A stretch of DNA of 59,940 nt from the IMG/VR virus record IMGVR_UViG_3300027908_000028, positions 1-59,940 of that record; one strand, given 5' to 3'. Both the position numbers and the translations under genes were made by a program. How positions within the stretch are numbered: the stretch's first letter is position 1; each line of letters opens with the position of its first letter. Source of the DNA: a virus. The notes under the pieces were generated by a model, which saw only the letters and a program-made list of their open reading frames with translations, was not told the DNA's origin and did no database searches. Of this stretch, positions 49,400 through 52,036 are shown one piece after another.

Positions 49400-52036
49400 A
49401 TGGATTCCGTTCACATCCGCATCGACAACAGGGTCCGCGTCGACACGACGGGACTCGAAGACGTCGTCACCAATGCGCTGAAGGAATCGTTCGACCATTC
49501 CAACCCCGAGTTTCACAAGCGCCAGCACATGGGCTTCGCGACGTGGAACATCCCGCGCGAGATCCGGACCTGGAACGAAAGCAACTCCTGGAATACCAAG
49601 GCGCTCGACTTCCCCCGCGGCGGAGCTGCCCGAGTGCGCGAGGTACTCGATCGCTACGGACTCGATCGCGTGTACGAAGACGCTCGCTGTCTCGGCGCAT
49701 CACTCACGAACGAGATCCCCGATCACAAGGTCGAACTCTGGGACCATCAGAAAGAACTCGTCGACGCCGCGGTCAAGCTCGAGAACTGCATTCTGAAAGC
49801 GCCGACCGGATCGGGAAAAACGACAGTCGCCTTCGCCATCGCTGCCCGCTTGAAGCTTCCGACGCTGGTCATCGTCTCGACGGCGGCACTCTTCAAGCAA
49901 TGGGTCACTCGAGCAGAAAAAGAACTCGGGATCCGAAAGCGCGATCTTGGAATCATCCGCGCGGGCAAGCGCAAGCTCGGAGTACTCACGATTGCGATGC
50001 AGCGCTCTCTCGCCGTCGGAGGGATCGACGGCGATCTCGCGAGGTACTTTGGGTGCGTCATCGCGGACGAATGTTTCGAGTCACACACCCCAGTGTTGAT
50101 GGCGGATGGGACGCACAAGCACATCGAGGACATCGTGGAGGGGGACGAGGTTGCCTTGGGTGGACGGGTGCTTGGCGTGGGGAGTCGCTGGTATGAGGGA
50201 AAGTTGTCGACGTGCGGAGGTAGTCTCGTGACACCCGAGCATCCTGTCTGGACGGAAAGGGGGTGGGTGCCGACAAAGTCTGTTTGCAGCGAAGACAATC
50301 TCAGGCACGATCCGTTGCATGAAGTGCGACGTTTGCAACAAACCTCTTCCAGGACAAAACCGGCGGGGGAGATGTCGTTCCCATGGGATGGGAACGTTCG
50401 ACAAGCAGACGGACGAGTGTCTGTTATGCGGGAGGCAGGTTCCGGCGAAGAAGCGCGGGTATCACGCCTCGACGAAGTGCGAAACTCGGGGGCCTTGGAA
50501 CAAAGGCAAGACGTCCGAGGACTCGCTTTCGGTTCGAGTGGGCGCCGAGAAGCGCAAGGGGCAAGTGCGCACTACGGTAAGCAGGATGTTCCGTCAGCTT
50601 TGGCGCGATCCGAAGAAGCGCGAGCAGTGGACCAAGAGCATGTCTGTAGGGCAGCGCAAACGATTCGAGAAGGACGAGGAACGAAAGGCGTCAAGGGAGC
50701 GTACGTTGGGGCTCATCAAAGAGGGGAAGATGAAGGCGTACGGGGGCAGGACACATGGCAAAGGCGCGATCCCCACTTCCTCGGAGCTGGCACTGTGGAG
50801 GGCGCTGCGCCCACTGGGCTTCAAAAGAGAACTGGTCGTGAGGACCGGGCAGCGGACGCCGACTTACTACGCATTGGACTTCGCGCACGAGGAGACGAAG
50901 TTGGCGTTGGAGATCGACGGGAGCAGTCACCAGCCGAAGGCGAGGAGGGAATCCGACGCGCGGAAGGATGCATTTCTCAAGACGCGTGGGTGGACAGTAA
51001 AGCGCTTCCGGGAGACGTCCGACTCGAGAGACATCGTGGCTTGGTGCGAGCGTTGGATGGTGTCGTTGGCTCGCTGAGGGTTCACAACCTTCAGACTGAA
51101 CGAGGGGTGTACGTGGCAGCCGGGGTGCTCGTACATAACTGTCAGCTCTTCGCAGCCAAGACGTTCATCGAGACCATTGATCCGTTTCCGGCCAAGTACC
51201 GAATCGGGATCTCTGCCGATCACCGCCGCAAGGATCGAAAGGAGTTTCTGATCCATGATCTCTTCGGCAGTGTGGCCGCGGAGGTGAAGCGCCGCGATCT
51301 CATCGACGTGGGCGTCATCGTCGACACGCTCATTCGCGTCGTGCCGACCAACTTCGAGGCGCCTTGGTACGGCAAGCCCGACGACGAACATCCAGCGACC
51401 TTCGAGCAACTTCTGGATGACCGAAAGTCGACTTTCGATCCGTCTGAGATCGCCAAAGAGCTGGACTGGGACAGGTTGCTCGAAGAGATGGCCAACGATG
51501 AAGACAGGCAGCGTCTTGCCGCGTGGTGCGTGAAGGACGGACTACGCGAAGACTCTCAGGTGCTCGTGATGAGTCATCGTCGCGATCACTGTCGCGCGCT
51601 CGATCAAGAGTTCGTGCGCATGGGCCTGACGACAGGCTTTCTCATCGGTGGTGCGGACTACCAACGCGAGTTCGACGCGGTGCGTACACGGTTCGAAAAA
51701 GAAGATCTTCAAGTTGCCATTGGTACATTTCAGGCAATCGGATACGGTATCGACTTACCCAAGGCGTCCGTTGTCGTATGCGTCACCCCCATCGCGTCCA
51801 ATCAGTTTTTCTTCAATCAGGTGCGGGGACGCGTGTGCCGCAAGGCCAAAGGCAAGACGGGCAGCACCATGTTCTACCTCTGGGACGAGAAGCTCTACGG
51901 GGACAAGCATCTCCGGAATCTTCTCCGATGGAATGGTCACGTGGTCGTGTGGGTCGGCGGCAAGTGGATCGGGGCGAAGGAATATCTGCGCGACAAGCGC
52001 GACAAGGCGAAAGCCACTGAAGGGACCGAAACATGA
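49400..52036 (+). CDS. SF2 DEAD/DEAH-type DNA helicase interrupted by an intein
   Basis: 878-residue precursor from ATG 49400. Motif I APTGSGKT at 134-141, motif II split as VIADE | C by the intein (residues 225-580), then CQLFAAKTF, so the spliced motif II reads DECQ. Motif VI QVRGRVCR at 807-814. The mature helicase would be 522 residues, like XPB/UvsW-type phage helicases acting in replication or recombination. Residues encoded by 51419-51440 (DDRKSTFD) come from a palindrome copy. The frame is open to 49355, with ACGGCATTAC upstream. Confidence 0.9.
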   Translation: MDSVHIRIDNRVRVDTTGLEDVVTNALKESFDHSNPEFHKRQHMGFATWNIPREIRTWNESNSWNTKALDFPRGGAARVREVLDRYGLDRVYEDARCLGASLTNEIPDHKVELWDHQKELVDAAVKLENCILKAPTGSGKTTVAFAIAARLKLPTLVIVSTAALFKQWVTRAEKELGIRKRDLGIIRAGKRKLGVLTIAMQRSLAVGGIDGDLARYFGCVIADECFESHTPVLMADGTHKHIEDIVEGDEVALGGRVLGVGSRWYEGKLSTCGGSLVTPEHPVWTERGWVPTKSVCSEDNLRHDPLHEVRRLQQTSSRTKPAGEMSFPWDGNVRQADGRVSVMREAGSGEEARVSRLDEVRNSGALEQRQDVRGLAFGSSGRREAQGASAHYGKQDVPSALARSEEARAVDQEHVCRAAQTIREGRGTKGVKGAYVGAHQRGEDEGVRGQDTWQRRDPHFLGAGTVEGAAPTGLQKRTGREDRAADADLLRIGLRARGDEVGVGDRREQSPAEGEEGIRRAEGCISQDAWVDSKALPGDVRLERHRGLVRALDGVVGSLRVHNLQTERGVYVAAGVLVHNCQLFAAKTFIETIDPFPAKYRIGISADHRRKDRKEFLIHDLFGSVAAEVKRRDLIDVGVIVDTLIRVVPTNFEAPWYGKPDDEHPATFEQLLDDRKSTFDPSEIAKELDWDRLLEEMANDEDRQRLAAWCVKDGLREDSQVLVMSHRRDHCRALDQEFVRMGLTTGFLIGGADYQREFDAVRTRFEKEDLQVAIGTFQAIGYGIDLPKASVVVCVTPIASNQFFFNQVRGRVCRKAKGKTGSTMFYLWDEKLYGDKHLRNLLRWNGHVVVWVGGKWIGAKEYLRDKRDKAKATEGTET
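50072..51139 (+). other. Intein (356 residues) in helicase motif II
   Basis: Starts at Cys225 (intein Cys1) and ends with His-Asn before Cys596-equivalent (+1 Cys). Block A: CFESHTPVLMADGTHKHIED with GDEV; block B: LVTPEHPVW with Thr54 and His57; block F: VHNLQTERGVYVAAG; block G: VLVHN then C. No LAGLIDADG or in-frame HNH domain. Intein residues about 83-335 are low-complexity Arg/Gly/Glu-rich because that DNA encodes the nuclease in the +1 frame. Confidence 0.9.
50319..51077 (+). CDS. Vsr-like EDxHD homing endonuclease nested out of frame in the intein
   Basis: 252 residues in the +1 frame relative to the helicase, ending 3 nt before block F. N-terminal zinc-finger pairs (C3, C6, C19, H22; C34, C37, H49, C54), a GPWNKGK NUMOD-like motif, a basic helical linker and a C-terminal PD-(D/E)xK nuclease: E156, D187, EID 198-200, H204 and D213/D217. 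This is the EDxHD pattern of Vsr-like homing endonucleases such as I-Bth0305I. The upstream frame is closed by TGA at 50229. No clear ribosome-binding site precedes ATG 50319. Confidence 0.85.
   Translation: MKCDVCNKPLPGQNRRGRCRSHGMGTFDKQTDECLLCGRQVPAKKRGYHASTKCETRGPWNKGKTSEDSLSVRVGAEKRKGQVRTTVSRMFRQLWRDPKKREQWTKSMSVGQRKRFEKDEERKASRERTLGLIKEGKMKAYGGRTHGKGAIPTSSELALWRALRPLGFKRELVVRTGQRTPTYYALDFAHEETKLALEIDGSSHQPKARRESDARKDAFLKTRGWTVKRFRETSDSRDIVAWCERWMVSLAR
51419..51440. repeat. 22-bp palindrome, copy 9, inside the helicase gene
   Basis: Right arm ends CGATC (one mismatch). Here the element is translated in frame as part of LLDDRKSTFDPS. It is the only copy inside a well-supported gene. Confidence 0.9.

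Follow-up and report, generated by a model that had tools for sequence, protein, structure and literature searches.

The helicase gene of a 59,940-base virus record, which was analysed at full length and is called the window here, raises the question of how one segment of DNA can serve as a protein-splicing element in one frame and as a nuclease gene in another. The open reading frame (ORF) at 49400-52036 encodes a single helicase, with no stop anywhere within, and an intein of 356 residues (50072-51139) sits in it after helicase residue 224 (...VIADE). A second ORF in the +1 frame (50319-51077) encodes a protein of 252 aa. The original prediction saw in this arrangement an intein whose homing endonuclease is nested out of frame, and our analysis leads to the same reading, to which we give a probability of about 0.87: a mobile intein whose homing endonuclease is not fused to it as a domain but encoded by an overlapping gene of its own, with splicing, internal initiation, cleavage and homing as predicted steps. 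The sequence evidence for this is very strong for the family as a whole and good for the window. The locus is composed as follows:

49400-50071, + strand: N-extein, comprising the N-terminal portion of an SF2 (XPB/ResIII-like) helicase as far as ...VIADE in motif II (Pfam ResIII/DEAD, PHROG helicase families, PDB RAD25/XPB)
50072-50329, + strand: N-terminal splicing half of the intein, with Cys1, block A (CFESHTPVLMADG) and block B TPEH, H57 lying at 50240-50242 (profile, AF2, Foldseek)
50319-51077, + strand: nested +1 gene, stop included, with zinc-finger motifs, GPWNKGK and a DUF559/EDxHD core (PF04480, invariant residues, AF2/Foldseek)
50330-51073, + strand: dual-coding stretch, a disordered stop-free filler in the helicase frame and the nuclease in +1 (stop counts, AF2, neutral host-frame ratio)
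51074-51139, + strand: C-terminal splicing half of the intein, with blocks F and G (VHNLQTERGVYVAAGVLVHN), the penultimate His and the terminal Asn (profile, invariant residues, AF2)
51140-52036, + strand: C-extein, with Cys+1 (DE/CQLFAAK, the slash marking the junction) and the remaining helicase (Pfam Helicase_C; PHROG 16 helicase, E 2.7e-39)

The intein starts with Cys1 and ends in VHN, and the next extein residues are Cys-Gln-Leu (QLFAAK follows Cys+1), so that the junctions read DE/C...HN/C and removal of the insert restores helicase motif II as DECQ. Elsewhere in the window, a 551-aa ORF (1028-2683) matches phrog_29662, a phage family with the label ATP-dependent protease (E 8.4e-77).

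In a tblastn search, the nested protein matched 40 phage records, the features concerned being mostly annotated as helicase, P-loop hydrolase or coil-containing protein. In all nine loci that were opened, the nuclease is unannotated and lies at +1 within an ATPase/helicase ORF that has no interruption and contains intein blocks. No viral relative came up with P0002 as the only query; alignment queries were used instead, and the collection scans gave 306 confirmed relatives in viral contigs, 80 of which were kept. In 93 loci, a single ORF contains both splicing halves and the nuclease is at +1, and six further loci with divergent blocks, found by hand, are also nested, which brings the total to 99 contiguous +1 loci. 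Some of these are identical or near-identical; at 90% nuclease identity 71 non-redundant loci remain, including two split ones, and the 69 contiguous ones were used for stop counts. The host frame is broken in three loci (L050, L052 and L053), which are candidate split inteins with their halves on separate ORFs, an organisation seen in these loci only and not in the window. The nuclease is in frame in two loci only (L057 and L058), which are alike and represent one intein, a share that is valid only for this nuclease family because the collection was made with the nested nuclease as query. In these two, a DUF559 nuclease is fused in frame within the intein of a UvrD-type helicase; the conventional layout is thus possible, and rare in the sample.

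The nested design is found in about 100 loci, in phages and in bacteria, across several genes and bacterial phyla. The hosts of the element are SF2 helicases, DnaX (Bacteroides, Lachnospiraceae), a terminase-like protein and SNF2/methylase polyproteins; the extein junction is DE/CH in 73 of the listed loci, the others being mostly different Walker B or DExx sites. The inteins in DnaX, the clamp loader, are nested at +1 in a Bacteroides and a Lachnospiraceae contig (L105:3481-4395 and L109:3394-4440) and have clear AAAGGAG-type Shine-Dalgarno (SD) sequences ahead of the nested ATG. A single indel in relatives that fuses the two frames, or an assembly error, had been named as grounds for rejecting the prediction. 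No such indel was found, the 99 loci sharing the +1 offset, and assembly error is excluded because the nesting recurs in isolated, sequenced phages (CP-T1, phi673, MR14 and many Vibrio phages). The nesting is therefore real, although what had looked like a single odd case is one member of a widespread class.

The +1 protein carries zinc-finger-like Cys pairs and matches Pfam DUF559 (PF04480) above cutoff (E 1.5e-11). Its core is modelled by AF2 with pLDDT mostly at 80-96, and the best meaningful Foldseek matches of this core are 3hrl (DUF559) and 3r3p, the catalytic domain of I-Bth0305I, the latter with a probability of 1.00. These matches bear out the proposal of a zinc-finger/EDxHD nuclease in the +1 frame with a PD-(D/E)xK/Vsr-like core. 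Across 64 nuclease sequences, D187, E198, D200, H204, D213 and K216 are invariant. The list of EDxHD residues first put forward thus holds for D187, E198, D200, H204 and D213 but not for E156 as a strict catalytic acid, since this position is E or Q among relatives, with Q as the consensus. Nor is the nested stop ahead of block F, as in the window, the rule, because in most relatives the nested gene runs through block F; in 48 of the 69 loci the nuclease gene ends at most 29 nt from the end of the intein.

The overlapping nuclease probably spreads the insert. An intein that splices next to a nuclease that has become an inactive relic, homing having been lost in this phage, is unlikely: the window gene has a weak SD and a long branch, and no close relative was found with which current selection on this copy could be tested (a search with the window helicase gave none in viral contigs, and only distant helicases), yet all of the invariant catalytic residues are intact and stops are absent from the helicase frame.

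How the nested gene might be expressed is suggested by the relatives, in which SD-like sequences precede the nested start, often a GAGGT derived from the D-E-V codons after block B. These sequences are in excess when compared to host-synonymous shuffles (mean score -7.1 vs -3.4, KS P about 2e-15), and the requirement for a start codon may account for part of the excess. In the window, the SD upstream of 50319 is weak (P 0.58), which makes the exact nested start and its expression uncertain. The absence of a strong SD from some copies, the window included, together with an offset that is always +1, would also suit programmed +1 frameshifting where block B ends, with a fusion of N-extein, Hint-N and nuclease as the product. 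We consider this route distinctly improbable, since many relatives have a strong-SD ATG just past block B with the nuclease beginning at the zinc finger (MKC...), and since the +1 gene is retained between the halves in the split loci.

In order to measure the constraint on the helicase frame, the nuclease protein was held fixed, its synonymous codons were shuffled and stops were counted in the helicase frame. The window has none, when 8.3 are expected from the shuffles (9.3 with extein codon usage), and the frame was open in 0 of 2000 shuffles. Over the 69 contiguous non-redundant loci, which span 33-66% GC, there are again no helicase-frame stops, compared to about 581 expected with the within-gene shuffle and 654 with extein codon usage, while the third frame contains 954 stops against 900 expected (split loci included). 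The controls behave differently, with 35 helicase-frame stops in L050 (34.7 expected) and 30 in L053 (28.1 expected), both split, and stops in the corresponding frame in 16 of 16 free-standing DUF559 genes. The window has many long spurious ORFs and its GC content is 59-60% in this region, so one could suppose that the helicase frame is open merely from GC-richness and that the intein is really split or dead. Hardly any weight can be given to this, as the shuffles predict 8.3-9.3 stops for the window and about 580-650 for the 69 loci, the split and free-standing controls contain stops, and the splicing catalytic residues are invariant; at 33-45% GC, a chance open frame of such length is out of the question. 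For the family, a frame open by chance is refuted by the stop counts and the controls.

Selection also acts strongly on the nested frame, where an absence of constraint would have counted against the prediction. The nuclease dN/dS ranges from 0.05 to 0.40, as pairwise counts with one frame held fixed and at the level of the family, not of the window's own copy. In the pooled linker, the ratio is 0.34 for the nuclease and 1.01 for the host; where blocks F and G are overlapped, the pooled ratios flip to 0.17 for the host and 0.71 for the nuclease. These ratios indicate that the host frame, where it overlies the nuclease, encodes filler that need only stay open, and the true dual constraint lies where the nuclease tail crosses block F. 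The proposal that one DNA segment is both kept open and made to encode a nuclease is hence supported, since the host frame avoids stops and the nuclease is under purifying selection, both frames being under selection at the family level; the linker's own amino acid sequence is neutral in the helicase frame except in blocks F and G.

The insert is a genuine Hint intein as judged from conserved residues and structure models, and is predicted to splice. Blocks A, B, F and G were recognised in the helicase frame at the outset, and an alignment of 65 inteins agrees, with C1, block B H57 and H355-N356 invariant and T54 nearly so; the window itself has C1, T54-x-x-H57, H355-N356 and Cys+1. Against profiles of relatives, the N-half scores E ~5e-19 and the C-half E 1.9e-12, the window being among the seeds of both profiles, and in relatives PF14890 (Intein_splicing) is found above cutoff. 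In the AF2 model of the window intein, pLDDT is 89-97 for residues 1-80 and about 87-97 for residues 331-356, while residues 96-326 are coil at about 34-53, almost without secondary structure. Foldseek matches this model to the Mtu RecA and MchDnaB-1 inteins with probability 1.00, and the matches to RecA, DnaB and gp41-1 inteins (probability 0.99-1.00, E 0.005-0.03) identify a Hint fold. Partial disorder in the models keeps the Foldseek E-values of both products modest (0.002-0.03); the probabilities are 0.99-1.00.

An RNA intron, or an insertion that does not splice and resembles an intein by accident, merits next to no credence, for although an out-of-frame endonuclease in an open, non-splicing insertion has a precedent in the ShiLan domain (PMC11855218), the locus has blocks A, B, F and G with the invariant C1, H, H and N, a modelled Hint fold, Foldseek matches to solved inteins and relatives with PF14890 above cutoff, and an Rfam search over it for group I or group II introns gave no match at gathering score.

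The mobility of the insert can be judged from its alleles. Closely related Vibrio phages carry three states at one DE/C site, namely empty (141O35-1, L122), a mini-intein (K389, L123, about 150 residues with no nuclease) and the nested intein (K391, L010), with near-identical exteins among them. This set of alleles is the signature of a mobile element. The comparison of helicases with and without the insert, proposed as a check, could thus be made in the Vibrio phages, where empty (L122) and nested (L010) alleles define a precise insertion, but not for the window, for which only distant helicases are available. Mini-inteins of about 150 aa without a nuclease occupy the DE/C site of the nested inteins in L123, L124 and L127 (Vibrio phages K389, K453 and 268E42.1). 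In Vibrio phage PS65A.1 (L125), one helicase has two inserts, a larger intein-like one in Walker A (GGGKT) and a mini-intein at DE/C.

In a tree of the nucleases, which has few columns and deep forks without resolution and so gives no direction as to whether the in-frame or the nested state is ancestral, the window falls in a group with the nested L011 and L014. The split loci make up a single clade that lies among nested loci, and a few free-standing viral copies (L078, L081 and L084) are likewise placed inside. The free-standing copy at L081:3983-4663 is sister to the nested nuclease of L083; its would-be host frame has stops, no Rfam intron was found for L081, and the copy is possibly an escaped homing gene.

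The three loci with a broken host frame (L050:3412-4386, L052 and L053:747-1721) are AT-rich (27% GC) viral loci and candidate natural split inteins. Their N-half stops just past block B and is followed by the +1 nuclease and by a C-half with its own candidate starts. A stop arising in the linker frame, with an internal start that rescues the C-half, would lead to such a fractured gene. We tentatively propose, at somewhat less than even odds, that the +1 overprinted inteins are a widespread, previously undescribed dual-coding class and the evolutionary source of split inteins with an EDxHD gene between their halves.

For the nested intein of the window, the following course of events is conceivable. 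Translation in the helicase frame would give a precursor made of the N-helicase, a Hint half, about 230 disordered filler residues, the second Hint half and the C-helicase; the Hint halves would come together and remove the insert, which would restore motif II (DE-C). On the same mRNA, ribosomes would start independently in +1 just after block B and produce the zinc-finger/EDxHD nuclease, whose targets would be the conserved motif II codons of helicase genes that lack the intein; with an occupied copy as the template for repair, the whole element would be inserted. As the sequence of the filler is irrelevant and only has to be stop-free, synonymous choices in the nuclease gene are policed by the splicing frame.

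To our knowledge, intein homing endonucleases have been described as fused domains. Here, a whole family has the nuclease as a second overlapping gene, so that splicing holds a single stretch of DNA open and nuclease function shapes it. With such an overlap, the dosage of the nuclease is uncoupled from that of the precursor, and the two frames are locked to each other. In phages and in bacterial DnaX alike, motif II of P-loop ATPases is the usual insertion site. In the records opened, the nuclease is unannotated and the entry shows just a helicase, or a hypothetical protein, bearing an odd insertion, and censuses of inteins and homing genes have therefore probably missed the whole class. Nested inteins provide a concrete path by which split inteins could arise, and they are a natural system for measuring and perturbing the constraint on either frame; tolerance of long disordered fillers is of practical interest in an intein, and natural small inteins may be of use too.

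Several known systems resemble the locus in part. In bifunctional inteins (e.g. PI-SceI), the precursor includes a LAGLIDADG or HNH nuclease as a domain in the same frame. The window intein shares with them a Hint fold interrupted by a homing endonuclease and a precise insertion in a conserved motif, but its nuclease is offset by +1, a separate overlapping gene, and the precursor carries disordered filler instead. The 'fractured genes' of Dassa and colleagues (2009) are reportedly split inteins with a free-standing EDxHD gene; the same nuclease class lies between intein halves here, and their layout is present in L050, L052 and L053, while in the window and 98 other loci the halves share one ORF, with which the nuclease overlaps. 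I-Bth0305I belongs to a group I intron. The window nuclease has the catalytic fold of this Vsr-like EDxHD enzyme (3r3p) and a modular DNA-binding N-terminus, yet its gene lies within an intein, and the first acid (E156) is variable among relatives.

In the literature searched, which covered few subscription papers, no intein with an out-of-frame endonuclease is described, and the only comparable case is the ShiLan domain/Pacc40 insertion, in which an insertion in a phage methylase carries an HNH gene out of frame (Arsenault, Gosselin, Gogarten 2025, PMC11855218). The statement that no standard example exists thus holds for inteins, although the idea of the overlap itself has a predecessor in ShiLan (PMC11855218). 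Both systems have an out-of-frame endonuclease, an open host ORF, an in-frame reading predicted to be poorly ordered and the distribution of a mobile element, and both are found in phage genes (PMC11855218). The ShiLan insertion lacks splicing motifs, and its authors conclude that it is neither intein nor intron (PMC11855218). It has an HNH nuclease and occurs in a few phage methylases (PMC11855218), whereas the element of the window has its splicing blocks in place and combines a Hint intein with a DUF559/EDxHD nuclease, a design that recurs in about 100 loci.
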